Assembly: GCF_001437155.1 (NCBI RefSeq)
Contig: NZ_JQAR01000025.1
Location: 1 to 34,453, forward strand
Length of the DNA stretch: 34,453 nucleotides
Direction: 5' to 3'
Source: Liquorilactobacillus mali
Lineage (GTDB): Bacteria > Bacillota > Bacilli > Lactobacillales > Lactobacillaceae
Program-made: the position numbers and the translations under genes
In this document: positions 12,580 to 30,771 of the stretch, piece by piece
How the letters are laid out: each line of letters opens with the position of its first letter
How positions within the stretch are numbered: the stretch's first letter is position 1
The notes under the pieces: generated by a model
What the model was told of the DNA's origin: nothing
Databases searched by the model: none
The model's input: only the letters and a program-made list of their open reading frames with translations

Positions 12580-13626
12580 CTACTTAATATCTAGCAACAC
12601 ATCTTCCGGTTTAATCCATCCCAACCGTTTGATGAAAATGTACCGTGAAACATATGCCAATAGCACAGGTAAGATTACGAAGATAAGTGCTAGGATAATA
12701 AAACTCATTATGTTTTTATCCATTCCTGCATATGCTGCCATGGGTCCAATTAATCCACTGAATCCAAATCCTGCACTCATCGAATTGCCTCCAATGTGTA
12801 GAAGTGCTCCAATGAATCCCATGATACCCGCATTAATACAGACCGGCAGGAATAACAATGGTTTCTTTAACATATTACCCATTTGAATCTTTGGTGAACC
12901 AATAAAGTGTGCGAAACTTGTCCCGATTGGATTTACAGAACTCCCATAAACTGCCAGCATGAAACTCCCGGCTGTAATTCCTAAGTTAGCTGAACCTGAA
13001 CCAATTCCTGCTAATCCAATCGCAGTTGCGATCCCTACAGAACTAATCGGGGATACGATTAGGACCGCAAAGCAAATTCCCATCAACGTTCCCATTAATA
13101 ATGGCTGTAAGCTAGTTATGTTACTAATAATCATTCCAATTGTCGTTGCAATCATCCTAACGTAGGGTAAAATGGCCAACCCAATTCCTCCAGCTATAAC
13201 AATCACTAGTAAAGGCAACAGTAACATAGTAAAGTCCTTTAGACGATTACCAATCAACAATGCAACCCAAACGGCAAGTGCTATTGTTAAACCAGTGTTG
13301 ATGATATCACCCGTTCCTTTCAAAATGAATGTCCCATTACCCGGCTGCATTACTCCAGAACCGACCATTGCCGCGATTGCTACTGCAGAAATCTGGATTG
13401 GATTGAGTTTGAAGTATAAGGATACACAAACACCTGTAATGACAGGAAGCAGACTCATTGCAAAACTTGTCATCATAATAATTGTAGTTGCATATGGGAA
13501 AAAGCCTTTGATGGCTGTCATTAACTGTCCTACTAAAGCCGACGGAATTAGAGCAACCACAACTCCTAAACTAATCCCATTTAAAATATTCATTGTGTAT
13601 TCTTTACCAGAAATTCTTGTTTCCAT
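12580..13626 (-). CDS. PfoR-like / PTS EIIC_2-type membrane protein without EIIA or EIIB
   Basis: 348 residues with about nine or ten membrane helices. Long Gly/Ala-rich helices, GSGVMQPGNGTFILKGTGD (about 89-107) and YGSSVNPIGTSFAHFIGSPKI (about 224-244) fit the EIIC_2 group of PTS-like permeases that includes clostridial and streptococcal PfoR. No phosphorylation domain is present in or near it, so sugar PTS activity is doubtful. The gene starts 26 nt after the hydroxyacid dehydrogenase and is third in an operon headed by an aromatic-type aminotransferase under a Phe/Tyr-codon leader. I infer a role in moving an aromatic amino acid or its keto or hydroxy acid; this is a hypothesis from context only. 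Confidence 0.75.
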   Translation of the reverse strand: METRISGKEYTMNILNGISLGVVVALIPSALVGQLMTAIKGFFPYATTIIMMTSFAMSLLPVITGVCVSLYFKLNPIQISAVAIAAMVGSGVMQPGNGTFILKGTGDIINTGLTIALAVWVALLIGNRLKDFTMLLLPLLVIVIAGGIGLAILPYVRMIATTIGMIISNITSLQPLLMGTLMGICFAVLIVSPISSVGIATAIGLAGIGSGSANLGITAGSFMLAVYGSSVNPIGTSFAHFIGSPKIQMGNMLKKPLLFLPVCINAGIMGFIGALLHIGGNSMSAGFGFSGLIGPMAAYAGMDKNIMSFIILALIFVILPVLLAYVSRYIFIKRLGWIKPEDVLLDIK

Positions 13627-13652: not shown

Positions 13653-14639
13653 TTAAGATACTTGGTGTTCGCTCTTCTTGCCATCAAGAATCATTACCAC
13701 ATCATCTAAGCTGATATCTACCATATTCTGAACTGCAATATTTGTAAAAAAGCCGACATGTGGGGTCAAAATTACATTATCCATTTTGCGTAACTTAATA
13801 AGTTGCTGACTTGGTAATTCTTTATTTTCCAAATTAAAATTAAAGAAGTTCTCTTCTCCTGTCAGTGTATCAAGTGCAGCTCCCGCTATTTCTTTTTGTT
13901 CCAGTGCCTCTATCAATGCATCCGTATCCACCACGGGGCCGCGGCATTCATTTACTAAATAAGCTGTTGGTTTCATTAAGGCCAACTCATCTTTACCAAT
14001 CAAGTTGAACGTTGAAGGGTTTAAGTCAACATGCAAACAGATTACATCTGCATTTTGTAATACTTCTTCTTTCTTCATATAGGTAACAAATGGTTTAAGC
14101 TCTTCTCGTTCAACTAAGTCATGTGCAATCACTTTTGCTCCTAATGCATTAAATATCTTGGCCGTTGTCCCACCAATCCGTCCAGCTCCGATGATTCCTA
14201 CCGTAAGTGAATGGATTTCAGCTGCCTGCAACCCTGCCCATCTGAAATCTTGTTTTGCTGCTCTCGCATCAAAAATTTCAAGCTTGCGAATTAATCTCAT
14301 TGTATGTGCTAGCGCCAACTCAGCAACTGATCGTGGAGAATAGGCTGGTACATTAGTGACAATAAGGTTATTTTTTCTAGCTGCATCAAGATCGATTACA
14401 TCAAATCCTGCTGTTCTTGTCGTAATCTGCTTTATTCCAGCTGCTTTTAGTGCTGGGTAAACTTCTGCCTCAACTTTACTGCGTTGTTGAATAACGATTC
14501 CATCATAACCCACTAATTCAGATACATGATCTGGATGAAGTTCCCAATCAACAGTATCAATCTGAATATTGTTTCTTTTTGCCCACCCTTCAATAGCAGC
14601 CTTTTCATCGTCTCTCACACTCATCATCAAAATTTTCAA
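13653..14639 (-). CDS. D-2-hydroxyacid dehydrogenase (D-lactate / D-hydroxyisocaproate type)
   Basis: 328 residues. NADH-dependent, reversible reduction of 2-keto acids to D-2-hydroxy acids in the cytoplasm. The Rossmann motif GIIGAGRIG is at 148-156. Catalytic residues are Arg233 (VNECRGPVVD), Glu262 or Glu263 (TLTGEENFF) and His294 (LTPHVGFFT). The NVPAYSPRSVAELALAH stretch (96-112) is typical of this branch, which includes phenyllactate- and hydroxyisocaproate-forming enzymes of lactic acid bacteria. It starts at TTG, seven nucleotides after AGGAGGG, which overlaps the stop of the aminotransferase gene three nucleotides away; the two are translationally coupled. Context suggests aromatic or branched 2-keto acids such as phenylpyruvate rather than pyruvate as substrate. 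Confidence 0.9.
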   Translation of the reverse strand: MKILMMSVRDDEKAAIEGWAKRNNIQIDTVDWELHPDHVSELVGYDGIVIQQRSKVEAEVYPALKAAGIKQITTRTAGFDVIDLDAARKNNLIVTNVPAYSPRSVAELALAHTMRLIRKLEIFDARAAKQDFRWAGLQAAEIHSLTVGIIGAGRIGGTTAKIFNALGAKVIAHDLVEREELKPFVTYMKKEEVLQNADVICLHVDLNPSTFNLIGKDELALMKPTAYLVNECRGPVVDTDALIEALEQKEIAGAALDTLTGEENFFNFNLENKELPSQQLIKLRKMDNVILTPHVGFFTNIAVQNMVDISLDDVVMILDGKKSEHQVS

Positions 14640-14642
14640 CTT

Positions 14643-15821
14643 TTAGCCCTCCTGATTTTCTTTGACATACACTGCCAAGCGTTTCATTGCTTCTACGATA
14701 TCTTCCATACTTGCTGCATAGCTGATTCTGATGTAGCCTTCACCACCAGGTCCAAAGCTGCTGCCGCTGATAACAGCTACTTTCCCCTTTTCCGCCAAAT
14801 CATAAATAAACTTCTTATCGTCCTGAATCAAGCCTTCCGGAATCTTGGCAAATAGATAAAATGCTCCGTCTGGTTGTGCACACTCAAAACCAAGGTTCAC
14901 CAACTTATCAAGTAAATAATCTCTACGTTTCTGATATTCTTTTTTCATTGTCGGGCCATCATCAAAACCATTTGCAAACGCTTCGGCCGCCGCCTTTTGT
15001 GTCATTGTTGACGTTGTGGTAATCGTAAATTGATGTACTTTACCCAATTCTGCTGTGATTTCTTTTGGTGCACACATTACGCCTATTCTCCACCCTGTCA
15101 TAGCATGAGACTTGGAAACCCCATTAAGAAGAATTGTTTGTTCGCGTAAACTATGAACCATTGATGCATGCTGCCCCTTGTAGTTGATCTCACTATAAAT
15201 TTCATCACAAATCGCAAAAATTGGTTTATTTCTAAGTACCTCTGCCAATCCATCCAGTTCTTCCTGTGTATACGTAACACCAGTTGGATTAGATGGATAA
15301 TTCAACACAACTGCCTTAACAGAATCTCCATGTTCCTTGAGCGTTGCCTTCAAATCTTCAGGTGTCAACTTAAATCCTGTCTTAGATGTGTTTACAAAAA
15401 TTGGTGTTGCCTGATTCAAAATTGTGATTGCAATGTATAATGGAAAAATTGGTGTTGGAATAATTACTTTATCACCTGGGTTAAGGATTGACGTAAGTGC
15501 AGTATAAATTGCCTCTGTTGCTCCATTTGTCACAATAATTTCACTTGCAGGATCGTAGTGTTGATCATACTTTGCAGAAAGAAAATGTGATGCAGCTTCT
15601 AATAACTCTGGAATACCATTAGACGGAGCATAATGACTTTGATTGGCCTCAATGCTCTTGATTGCAGCTTGCTTAATGTGCTCTGGGGTTGCAAAATCCG
15701 GTTCCCCCATCGTAAATTTGATTATTCCCGGAATTTTTGAAGCAAACTCATCGAATGAACGTATATCTGATGGTTGTAGCATTGCAAGTTCCTTCTTCAT
15801 ACTTTTGACAAGTGATTCCAT
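14643..15821 (-). CDS. PLP-dependent class I aminotransferase, probably aromatic (AraT-like)
   Basis: 392 residues, the length of lactococcal AraT. It exchanges an amino group between an amino acid and 2-oxoglutarate. Seen: the start of the fold GIIKFTMGEPDF (32-43), YAPSNGIPELLEAA (64-77), NYPSNPTG with Asn178, CDEIYSEINY with Asp206 and Tyr209, and the PLP lysine Lys237 in GVSKSHAMTGWRIG, then the carboxylate-binding Arg near GEGYIRISYA. First gene of a three-gene operon. Substrate choice rests on its leader, which encodes FYYFYFF before a terminator, and on the adjacent D-hydroxyacid dehydrogenase. The ribosome binding site is AAGGG, ten nucleotides upstream. PatA-type specificity cannot be excluded by sequence alone. 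Confidence 0.88.
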   Translation of the reverse strand: MESLVKSMKKELAMLQPSDIRSFDEFASKIPGIIKFTMGEPDFATPEHIKQAAIKSIEANQSHYAPSNGIPELLEAASHFLSAKYDQHYDPASEIIVTNGATEAIYTALTSILNPGDKVIIPTPIFPLYIAITILNQATPIFVNTSKTGFKLTPEDLKATLKEHGDSVKAVVLNYPSNPTGVTYTQEELDGLAEVLRNKPIFAICDEIYSEINYKGQHASMVHSLREQTILLNGVSKSHAMTGWRIGVMCAPKEITAELGKVHQFTITTTSTMTQKAAAEAFANGFDDGPTMKKEYQKRRDYLLDKLVNLGFECAQPDGAFYLFAKIPEGLIQDDKKFIYDLAEKGKVAVISGSSFGPGGEGYIRISYAASMEDIVEAMKRLAVYVKENQEG

Positions 15822-15871: not shown

Positions 15872-15910
15872 TTAAAAGCCTGCAGACTTGATTCATAAGT
15901 CTGCAGGCTT
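15872..15910 (-). terminator. Attenuator terminator (segments F:G)
   Basis: On the minus strand AAGCCTGCAGACTT (15910-15897) pairs perfectly over 14 bp with AAGTCTGCAGGCTT (15889-15876) around the loop ATGAATC, then TTTTAATATT. It lies about 50 nt before the aminotransferase ATG and 230 nt downstream of the leader ATG, so it interrupts the operon's own transcript. The U-run is only four long. Confidence 0.85.
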
Positions 15911-16068
15911 GGTTTCACATCAGCATTATCATTTTTCTTGCTTTAGGCCAAACAGACTCTTTAATTGACATCTGTGTGGCTTGCTAAAATTGCTAGCAAA
16001 ATAACTCTTATCTTCCTCACAGGTGCATAACACTTTACCTACGTGTCTGCACCTGATTCCTTAATCAG

Positions 16069-16140
16069 TTACAAACACTCGTGAAAAAAATAAAAGTAAT
16101 AAAAATTATTCAATTGTGCGAGTCTATTAGAATTAACCAT
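16069..16140 (-). CDS. Leader peptide with seven consecutive Phe/Tyr codons
   Basis: 23 residues, too short for routine gene finding. It begins MVNSNRLAQ, carries FYYFYFF at residues 13-19 (codons TTT TAT TAC TTT TAT TTT TTT, positions 16104-16084) and ends HECL. The ribosome binding site AAGGGG lies nine nucleotides upstream of the ATG, and a consensus promoter ends about 32 nt upstream. The stop codon lies inside the first pairing segment of the downstream RNA structure. The composition parallels the pheA-type leader peptides of enteric bacteria. The peptide itself probably has no function; its translation rate is the signal. T-rich DNA encodes Phe easily, so the start site, Tyr codons and position carry the argument rather than the Phe count alone. 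Confidence 0.78.
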   Translation of the reverse strand: MVNSNRLAQLNNFYYFYFFHECL

Positions 16141-16171
16141 AATTAAAATCCCCTTAAAATTGAATAAGTAA

Positions 16172-16200
16172 AATATATCTTACTAATCAATAGCTGTCAA
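16172..16200 (-). promoter_or_regulatory. Promoter of the aminotransferase operon
   Basis: On the minus strand TTGACA (16195-16200), a 17-nt spacer and TATATT (16172-16177): a near-consensus housekeeping promoter. The predicted start near 16165 gives a leader mRNA whose first ribosome binding site belongs to the leader peptide. The 603-nt gap between the aminotransferase gene and argG is filled by this leader, a hairpin at 16270-16334 and the argG promoter area. Confidence 0.8.
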
Positions 16201-16269
16201 CCGTTTTTACATTATTTTCACATATAATTTCAATTTATATTTTCGAATTTTAATTCTGTTGTTGAAAAA

Positions 16270-16334
16270 AAGCTTGTCCTATTATGAATATATTCGTTTT
16301 TAAAAGCATATATATTCATAATAAGGCTTTTTTT
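16270..16334. terminator. Symmetric terminator-like hairpin between divergent promoters, with ARG-box-like arm
   Basis: CCTATTATGAATATAT pairs with ATATATTCATAATAAGG over about 15 bp with one bulged A and a loop of about 15 nt. The plus strand continues CTTTTTTT, the minus strand GCTTTTTTT. No gene lies upstream on either strand close enough to need ending. The right arm holds AGCATATATATTCA (16305-16318), one mismatch from the ARG-box pattern TGNATWWWWATNCA, so part of it may be an ArgR operator. Confidence 0.6.
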
Positions 16335-16342
16335 AGGTTTTT

Positions 16343-16372
16343 TTGTAAATATTATTGCATTTTAAGTATATT
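16343..16372 (+). promoter_or_regulatory. Candidate argG promoter
   Basis: TTGTAA (16343-16348), an 18-nt spacer and TATATT (16367-16372), about 50 nt upstream of argG. The -35 box is weak (4 of 6). It would place the hairpin at 16270-16334 upstream of the start rather than in the leader; an earlier promoter would instead make that hairpin an attenuator. Confidence 0.35.
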
Positions 16373-29535: not shown

Positions 29536-30549
29536 CTACTTGAAATAGTTAACACCGATTGCAGCCCTAACTTCACTTAGAGTCTGTCCTGCTACCGCAT
29601 TGGCACGAGCACTACCTTCTTTTAAGATATCATATACGGAAGGAATGTCTTTGGCAAATTCTGCACGTCTTTCTCTTATTGGTTTCAATTTTGCCTCAAG
29701 AACATCATTTAAATATCTTTTTATTTTGACATCCCCTAGTCCACCAGCTTGATATTCTTGTTTTAATTGTGCAACTTTTTCTTTATCCTCATCAAAAACA
29801 TCTAGATATGTGAATACCATATTACCTTCAATCTTACCTGGGTCCTCTATATGGACATGATCAGGATCCGTATACATTGACATAACTTTCTTCCTTAAAG
29901 TGTCTGCATCATCTGAGAGATAAATACAGTTATTCAATGATTTACTCATCTTCGCGTTACCATCCAATCCAGGTAATCTGCCAGCGCCCTTTTCAGGGAA
30001 AACTCCTTCTGGTTCAACTAGGATTTCTTGACCATAAATCGTATTAAAACTTCTGACAATTTCACGGGCCTGTTCAATCATTGGTTCCTGATCATCGCCC
30101 ACTGGTACAAGATTAGCTTTAAAAGCCGTAATATCTGCAGCCTGGCTCACTGGATAAACAAAGAAGCCCGCTGGGATAGAACGCTCAAAATTTTTCTGCT
30201 GAATTTCTGCTTTCACTGTAGGGTTGCGTTCCAAACGAGAGACTGTCACTAAGTTGAGGTAATATGTTGTCAGTTCAGACAAGGCAGGAATTTGTGATTG
30301 TACAAAAATAGTTGATTTTGCAGGGTCAATCCCAACAGCTAAGTAATCAAGGGCTACCTCGATTAATGACTTACGAATTTTTTCTGGATCACGTGCATTA
30401 TCTGTGAGTGCTTGCTGGTCAGCAATCATGATGAATGTATTATAATCGCCTGTATTTTGTAGCTTAACACGACTTTTCAAGGATCCAATATAATGTCCAA
30501 TATGAAGCTTTCCTGTTGGTCGGTCTCCTGTTAAAATTGTCTTCTTCAT
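29536..30549 (-). CDS. trpS: Tryptophanyl-tRNA synthetase
   Basis: 337 residues, class I synthetase. [16 protein letters not shown] (8-23) holds the HIGH motif and [11 protein letters not shown] the KMSKS motif; [15 protein letters not shown] and DNARDP are typical of bacterial TrpRS. A TTG two codons upstream (30555) also opens the frame, but the AAAGGGG site is spaced nine nucleotides from the ATG at 30549. It is preceded by a T-box leader and terminator, so expression should rise when tRNA-Trp is uncharged. Confidence 0.97.
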
Positions 30550-30569
30550 TATCAATTACCCCTTTCAAA

Positions 30570-30767
30570 ATAAAAAATCCCATCGCTAAAAATAGCAATA
30601 GGACGTAACTAAGCGCGGTGCCACCTATCTTGCAGTATAAACTGCCTCTCATTACAACATATATTTCATTAATTTACATTCTCCCAGTCCAATTCGTTTG
30701 ACATTGCATCTCTCAACCGTTCAATGCATCTCTGTTAGAGTCAAACTACTACCTGATCATCGAATAA
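30570..30767 (-). promoter_or_regulatory. T-box riboswitch of trpS
   Basis: The minus strand holds the T-box core AGGTGGCACCGCG (30626-30614), then a terminator TCCTATTGCT / AGCGATGGGA with TTTTTT (about 30604-30570). Upstream is a stem I candidate with the long GTTTGAC/GTCAAAC pairing, followed by GAATTGGACTGGG, which contains Trp codons (TGG) in a fitting place for the specifier; which TGG is read is not certain. Uncharged tRNA-Trp would stabilise the antiterminator. Confidence 0.88.
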
Positions 30768-30771
30768 GATT

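Follow-up and report, generated by a model that had tools for sequence, protein, structure and literature searches.

The window studied here is a stretch of 34,453 nucleotides from Liquorilactobacillus mali, taken at its full length. On its minus strand a promoter, a Shine-Dalgarno sequence, a short open reading frame (ORF) with a run of aromatic codons, a series of complementary segments and an intrinsic terminator precede genes for a class I aminotransferase, a D-2-hydroxyacid dehydrogenase and a PTS_EIIC_2 membrane protein (Table 1). The predicted ORF, with its ribosome-binding site, sits between the promoter and this operon. It opens MVNSNRLAQLNNFYYFYFFHECL with the ATG at 16140, AAGGGG lying nine bases 5' of it, and closes with the TAA at 16071-16069 of the minus strand, while the aminotransferase ORF starts at 15821, 3' of the terminator. 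The original prediction for this DNA had described a near-consensus promoter, AAGGGG, an ATG, 23 codons with seven consecutive Phe/Tyr codons, a stop codon inside an RNA pairing segment and a 14-bp terminator before the first structural gene, and all of these are present where it placed them. In an alignment of the genus the TTGACA of the promoter is invariant in 14 of 14 species and AAGG(A/G)G is likewise found in all 14; promoter-like sites as a class are not enriched in the window over shuffles (4 against a mean of 3.9). One 14-pair terminator was found in the window against a mean of 0.2 in shuffled sequence, and the fold of the leader RNA has a z of -5.69 relative to shuffles, none of 100 being as good.

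Table 1. Features of the leader and the operon behind it (positions in the window).
Feature	Positions	Strand	Basis
Promoter, TTGACA-17 nt-TATATT	16172..16200	minus	11 of 12 consensus letters
Shine-Dalgarno sequence of the leader ORF, AAGGGG	16150..16155	minus	sequence
Leader ORF, 23 codons and stop TAA	16069..16140	minus	sequence and conservation
Segment 1, aromatic control codons FYYFYFF	16084..16104	minus	seven consecutive Phe/Tyr codons
Segment 2, holds the stop codon, pairs with 3	16069..16080	minus	chain search, alignment
Segment 3, pairs with 2 or 4	16043..16053	minus	chain search, alignment
Segment 4, pairs with 3 or 5	16018..16028	minus	chain search, alignment
Segment 1', complement of the aromatic codon run	16005..16020	minus	98.2% of cells paired, 14 species
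Segment 5, pairs with 4 or 6	15968..15980	minus	chain search, alignment
Segment 6, pairs with 5 or 7 (antiterminator)	15947..15958	minus	chain search, alignment
Segments 7 and 8, intrinsic terminator with U tract, 14 pairs	15876..15910	minus	terminator search
Class I aminotransferase, first structural gene (PRK07309-like)	14643..15821	minus	profile and structure matches
D-2-hydroxyacid dehydrogenase, second gene	13653..14639	minus	profile and structure matches
PTS_EIIC_2 membrane protein, third gene	12580..13626	minus	domain match

The best NCBIfam match of the aminotransferase is PRK07309, at 553 bits just under the 576-bit cut-off, and its nearest structures are a putative amino acid aminotransferase (4my5) and an aromatic aminotransferase (1dju). 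The dehydrogenase is closest in structure to a D-lactate dehydrogenase (4xkj) and also matches D-2-hydroxyisocaproate dehydrogenase (1dxy). The neighbouring argG and argH run in the opposite direction to the leader operon. Just upstream of argG, on the plus strand, there is a long hairpin followed by a T run (window 16265-16335; -23.7 kcal/mol for 16256-16345), which is possibly a terminator or an attenuator of argGH.

Orthologues of the aminotransferase are present in all 14 genomes of the genus that were examined and the leader stands ahead of 14 of the 14. Among 200 loci with relatives of the aminotransferase it was found upstream of 70, its frequency following the identity of the aminotransferase: 14 of 14 at 70% or more, 10 of 11 at 62-70%, 32 of 45 at 58-62%, 14 of 45 at 54-58% and none of 85 below 54%. 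Three of the 70 loci repeat another locus, leaving 67 distinct leaders; ATG is the start codon in all 70, and the peptides are 18 to 30 residues long. Leaders occur in the named genera Leuconostoc, Pediococcus, Loigolactobacillus, Secundilactobacillus, Lactiplantibacillus and Sporolactobacillus, and in two genomes of other families of the order (L037 and L235). Homologous leaders thus retain the ORF, and their recurrence, with drifting flanks, in every one of the 14 species of the genus and at 70 of the 200 loci argues that the leader is not a chance feature. It was not found ahead of six aminotransferase paralogues within the genus (L181-L186), ahead of the orthologues of genus g62 in family f2 (six loci) or of family f3 (seven loci), or in Enterococcus plantarum (L068).

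The first search covered 700 nt of upstream sequence, and a longer search in loci of at least 50% identity added L022. With the positions of the core [YF]-Y-F-x-[FY]-F numbered c1 to c6, its pattern required aromatic residues at c3 and c6 and restricted the residues at c1, c2 and c5. It was escaped by L010 (Leu at c3), L164 (Cys at c5), L022 and L289, whose diverged or displaced leaders were noted by eye: SRFALWYFR in L010, SFYFWCFG in L164, and L022 and L289 (SFYFYFAWY). A loose pattern gave nine matches in 20 control loci, of which that in L235 is a leader, that in L251 has an ATG without a Shine-Dalgarno sequence and the rest lack a fitting ATG. The leader of L235, on the reverse strand of a locus chosen as a control, is of the short type that lacks segments 3 and 4 (MSNSLKLKQANFYYFWFFTIDL), with AAAGGG nine bases 5' of its ATG. 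No second leader emerged from the own genome of L. mali, where the pattern matched 11 times (5 forward, 6 reverse) against 3 and 6 times for a reversed control pattern; judged by the frames of all 11 matches and by what surrounds four of them, the known leader alone seemed genuine. A search of plasmids with the leader gave no match. Searching whole genomes with the commonest core yielded 49 places in 48 of 201 family genomes, the reversed pattern yielding 4; judged by position, 32 of the 49 are leaders of the aminotransferase, and two of the other 17 (L281 and L282) look like leaders, that of L282 sitting at a contig end.

Across the 67 distinct leaders the aromatic core is kept while the flanking codons drift. 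The counts are Tyr 41, Phe 24, Leu 1 and His 1 at c1; Tyr 62, Asn 2, Ser 2 and Trp 1 at c2; Phe 67 at c3; Trp 45, Arg 9, Tyr 7, Lys 3, Ser 1, Gly 1 and Leu 1 at c4; Phe 47, Tyr 18, Arg 1 and Leu 1 at c5; and Phe 66 and Trp 1 at c6, where only the c4 count is unbiased, the search pattern overstating the fixity of the other five positions. Codons are nearly fixed at c2 (TAC in 59) and c3 (TTT in 62) and vary synonymously at c5 and c6. Within the genus codons -11 to -5 before the stop are aromatic in the 14 species, except for one Leu at -11, and positions -16 to -22 each take six or more residues. The aromatic codons were predicted to be kept in orthologues while flanking codons drift, and the upstream alignment bears this out, the N-terminal codons drifting and c4 being the exception within the run. 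Their description as Phe/Tyr codons needs amendment, since the run is kept but c4 is most commonly Trp and also takes Arg, Lys, Ser, Gly and Leu. With Trp the commonest residue at c4 (45 of 67), all three aromatic amino acids are therefore represented in the run.

Asn and Leu at positions -13 and -14 are also fixed in the genus. The bases 5' of the leader's Shine-Dalgarno sequence (TATTCAATT, window 16166-16158) are complementary to the Gln-Leu-Asn codons (AATTGAATA, 16115-16107), so that a hairpin may enclose the ribosome-binding site of the leader in its loop. The complementarity holds in the genus; several genera have it and others lack it, and it perhaps accounts for the fixity of -13 and -14.

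A short segment 3' of the stop codon is complementary to seven bases of the run, which reach from the end of c2 to the last base of c4. In this test, which took in 66 of the 67 distinct leaders, all seven bases were paired in 56 of the 66, against 33% in shuffled post-stop regions. The c4 classes fit their own partners (CTTTTAT:ATAAGAG, CTTTCGC:GCGAAAG, CTTTCGT:ACGAAAG, CTTTAAG:CTTAAGG and CTTTGGT:GCCAAGG), and three leaders of the genus with Trp at c4 that were inspected have six of the seven bases paired. The diagonal of the c4 class matrix is 128, compared with 96.2 (sd 7.7) in permutations, none of 20,000 being as high, although as the sequences are related this is not a strict probability. 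Within the genus the change between Tyr and Trp (UAU/UGG) is compensated in the 1:1' stem, with an A-U pair in five species, G-C in seven and G-U in two. The aromatic run thus seems, from this co-variation, to serve as control codons and as one arm of an RNA stem at once, and the residue at c4 is apparently free because it is held by the RNA pairing and not by its amino-acid class.

Nascent peptides can themselves arrest the ribosome, as in the TnaC and Erm leaders, and here the peptide might do so at or near the stop codon on binding an aromatic ligand, with the same RNA switch downstream. The core is more fixed than a simple run of control codons needs, an L-N pair lies shortly 5' of it in 42 of 70 leaders, and such an arrest would leave the sign of control as it is, since segment 2 is masked while a ribosome sits at the stop. 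The Gln-Leu-Asn stretch is, however, absent before the core in Lactiplantibacillus (L063) and Leuconostoc (L064 and L066), and its codons in the genus are complementary to bases immediately 5' of the Shine-Dalgarno sequence. Moreover, c4 takes seven different residues and tracks RNA complementarity, which fits codons and RNA better than a peptide motif. The conservation pattern would therefore seem to speak mildly against a TnaC-like arrest, and we regard this explanation as unlikely.

Between the leader stop codon and the aminotransferase gene a hairpin below -10 kcal/mol followed by a U tract is present in 68 of the 70 leaders, and 26 of 210 shuffled regions have one; the two leaders in which the finder gave no terminator under -10 kcal/mol are L029 and L163. 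Upstream of it lie chains of mutually exclusive complementary segments, which were first read by eye and then found again by a search in 28 examples; the search was anchored near the stop codon and at the terminator arm and left the intervening windows free. With the long and short classes assigned by eye before scoring, 31 of the 33 short-type leaders scored best at exactly three links (median z of the class 6.2 against shuffles), and of the 29 long-type leaders 15 did so at five links and 11 at six (median z of 5.3 for both). This scoring covered 62 of the 70 leaders, leaving aside L163, for which the finder gave no terminator, the duplicates L063, L151 and L157, and L030, L037, L062 and L158. 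The expected attenuator anatomy, with a terminator and antiterminator pairings that exclude it, is thus present, with the chains scoring well above shuffles, and is refined to a relay of several stems. In L012 the later segments have quite different letters in the same pairing order, and in the Sporolactobacillus leader L062 the 5:6 hairpin itself appears, by reading only, to be the terminator. By reading, the stop codon falls inside the first switching segment in nearly all leaders inspected, L040 being the exception. There the conserved TGA of segment 2 is out of frame, and the ORF continues to a later stop outside the segment.

In the alignment of the genus the 2:3 and 4:5 stems are nearly invariant and so show little co-variation. 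The share of paired cells is no more than 65.7% for one half of 6:7 and 75.3% for 5:6, and these within-genus pair counts say little because most pairs are invariant. In 14 short-type sequences from several genera 95.7% of cells are paired and two pairs have changed on both sides, which 113 of 500 shuffles also reach. Kinship among the sequences means that neither shuffle nor permutation counts are strict probabilities.

A short hydrophobic peptide kept in many species might alternatively be a functional small protein, with the terminator an ordinary operon terminator. At 18 to 30 residues, with a drifting N-terminus, a terminator separating it from the aminotransferase in 68 of 70 leaders and a relay complementarity far above shuffles, this is the least probable of the readings that we weighed.

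The strong structure of the leader RNA would also suit an element that works without translation, such as a T-box, a riboswitch or a protein-bound attenuator, the ORF being fortuitous, and the same genome has 33 T-box matches elsewhere, nine of them over the cut-off. No Rfam family matches the leader at its cut-off in the window or in 20 further loci, and the nine weak matches in the window that fall below their cut-offs are mostly to microRNA and snoRNA families, none to a T-box. The start codon, the Shine-Dalgarno sequence and the frame are kept while codons drift, and the stop codon lies, L040 apart, in the first switching segment of nearly all leaders inspected. A translation-independent element is thus very improbable. 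A T-box or other Rfam element at the leader was rejected on the same scans. Replacement of the leader by a T-box in orthologues that lack it was also rejected: an Rfam scan of 20 loci, comprising 19 leader-less by the pattern (including L010, L164 and L022 with their diverged or displaced leaders) and the leader-bearing L152, gave only five tRNAs. Elsewhere in the window (30596-30769, minus strand) there is a T-box match that scores 73 bits, short of the 93-bit cut-off, and lies 5' of the ORF at 29536-30555.

We therefore favour a ribosome-mediated transcription attenuator as the function of the leader, and put the probability of this at roughly 85%. The leader ORF would be translated while RNA polymerase makes the leader RNA. 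When charged Phe, Tyr or Trp tRNA is scarce, the ribosome would slow on the aromatic run, opening the 1:1' stem and leaving segment 2, with its stop codon, free; 2:3, 4:5 and 6:7 could then form, no terminator would arise and the operon would be transcribed. When aromatic amino acids are plentiful, a ribosome reaching the stop would cover segment 2, so that 3:4, 5:6 and 7:8 form, 7:8 being the terminator, and the operon would be off. Without translation 1:1' would keep the early segments apart from 5, and termination would again be expected. The short types, with segments 3 and 4 absent, would follow the same logic (2:5 and 6:7 against 5:6 and 7:8). As the long and the short types differ by the segment pair 3/4, the parity of the chain, and therefore the predicted sign of control, is unchanged. 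Slow decoding of c1 to c5 is the step that would leave segment 2 free, and the anatomy therefore predicts that the operon opens when charged tRNA for Phe, Tyr or Trp runs short.

To compute the effect of ribosome position, each leader was folded up to the terminator loop with the bases under the ribosome masked, once for a ribosome stalled at c2 and once for one at the stop codon. The readout was the pairing of the 5' arm of the terminator with upstream RNA, in 68 of the 70 leaders (L029 and L163 being left out). The difference, stalled minus stop, exceeded 0.2 in 16 leaders and fell below -0.2 in one of the 68, compared with 15 and 14 of 204 for shuffled sequences; at a looser limit of 0.1 there were 26 for and 7 against, compared with 42 and 39 of 204. 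In a first version of the simulation the stalled value was above that at the stop in 47 of 68, by more than 0.2 in 11, and was below -0.2 in none. The clearest responses come from short types, with values of 1.00 stalled and 0.15 at the stop for L172 and 0.92 and 0.45 for L096, and in these the sharp change falls between c5 and c6. Most long types hardly respond in the equilibrium fold (0.43 to 0.57 stalled and 0.40 at the stop for the leader of the window), which would fit a relay governed by the order of synthesis and not by equilibrium. An opposite lean is seen in L062, L008, L034, L009, L171 and L033. For several short types the folding predicts that stalling at c6 has the effect of a ribosome at the stop, although Phe occupies this position in 66 of 67 leaders.

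Leader-peptide attenuation is textbook knowledge in enteric bacteria, as in the pheA, pheST and trp leaders of Escherichia coli, and is rarely reported in Firmicutes, where T-boxes dominate. Like the E. coli leaders, that of L. mali has a short ORF with control codons, a stop codon in a pairing segment, alternative stems and an intrinsic terminator. It differs in that the lactobacillar run mixes Phe, Tyr and Trp codons, in the longer relay of the long types, in its occurrence in Lactobacillales and in an operon made up of an aminotransferase, a 2-hydroxyacid dehydrogenase and a membrane protein. The enteric his attenuator, with its segments A to F, provides a precedent for long relays and shares with the present leaders more than three mutually exclusive stems between codons and terminator, although amino acid, taxon and sequence are different and the lactobacillar relay varies in length among relatives of one leader. 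Leader attenuation has reportedly been proposed for the branched-chain operon of Lactococcus lactis, also a lactic acid bacterium, with other amino acids and in another family and operon. The T-box riboswitch (RF00230) binds tRNA directly and has no leader ORF; it too senses amino-acid shortage in the same bacterial group and controls a terminator, as the leader would do, whereas the leader has an ORF and no T-box was detected at its locus.

Leader peptides in Firmicutes are described for histidine, at hisS and hisZ in bacilli (PMC2965389, in the part of the text available) and in the his operons of the Bacillus cereus group, five Eubacteriales and six Erysipelotrichales (PMC9413887, likewise in part), and according to the available part of the latter T-boxes are the commonest his control in Lactobacillales. 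These share leader-peptide attenuation in Firmicutes with the present system and, in the portions available, concern histidine only. Among the matches listed by a literature search, with most subscription papers outside its scope, there was no description of a leader peptide at this operon. The suggestion that a peptide-based aromatic attenuator is unusual in this group and perhaps undescribed holds within that literature, with the refinement that leader peptides, though rare in Firmicutes, do occur there, as the His leaders show. Leader-peptide attenuation is known; the family, the taxon, the mixed aromatic codons and a change of relay length that preserves parity appear new within the literature searched. 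A widespread aromatic leader family in lactobacilli would show that leader peptides and T-boxes coexist in one genome, given the 33 T-box matches, and would offer a natural series of relay switches in which to follow how attenuators evolve without a change of sign.

The genes behind the leader likely convert aromatic amino acids, keto acids and aryl-lactates into one another. A search for prephenate dehydratase found it in 19 of the 201 family genomes and in none of the eight among them that belong to the genus, while of the 14 genomes of the genus 12 have prephenate dehydrogenase and 13 have chorismate synthase. Synthesis of Phe as the sole role was therefore rejected, synthesis of Tyr or salvage of keto acids fitting better. 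With the dehydrogenase and the synthase present and the dehydratase not found, the aminotransferase probably carries out the last step of Tyr synthesis and is able to recover aromatic keto acids as well. For such a role induction on shortage makes ready sense, less so for the production of aryl-lactates. A relative of the D-2-hydroxyacid dehydrogenase lies directly 3' of the aminotransferase in 41 of the 47 leader loci with enough 3' DNA (one counted twice), compared with 6 of 89 other loci; these six are L010, L022 and L142, from genomes with diverged or displaced leaders, two Bifidobacterium loci and one of Periweissella (L075).

The third gene has relatives in 24 leader loci and in six others; many of the leader loci stop short of the gene or inside it. 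In L281 (380-800) the leader directly heads a free-standing PTS_EIIC_2 gene whose product is 42% identical to that of the window, which hints that the membrane protein handles aromatic compounds. In L022, and in L289 from the genus of L022, it heads PTS_EIIC_2 followed by the aminotransferase. We lean, if only slightly, towards a broader account in which a single ancestral aromatic leader peptide in Lactobacillales and their neighbours has held on to its codons through a rewiring of the RNA into relays of 4 to 6 mutually exclusive stems; the relays would differ by entire segment pairs, so that parity and the sign of control stay constant. It would head whichever gene of the module comes first, be it the aminotransferase, the D-2-hydroxyacid dehydrogenase or PTS_EIIC_2, and would mark the PTS_EIIC_2 protein as a transporter of aromatic amino, keto or hydroxy acids. 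The leader gives a first testable control for the aromatic operon and points to a function for this orphan protein.

In bifidobacteria an amino acid transaminase adjoins the aromatic lactate dehydrogenase and aryl-lactates are made (PMC8556157, in the part available). The adjoining transaminase and dehydrogenase resemble the present operon, whereas the two Bifidobacterium loci among ours (L069 and L070) have no leader of the L. mali kind. They share a short aromatic-rich ORF that lies some 230 to 150 nt 5' of the aminotransferase and has AGGAGG ahead of an internal ATG (MQGTRFTYWWHGFDL). No intrinsic terminator was found for this ORF, which is perhaps an independent leader.
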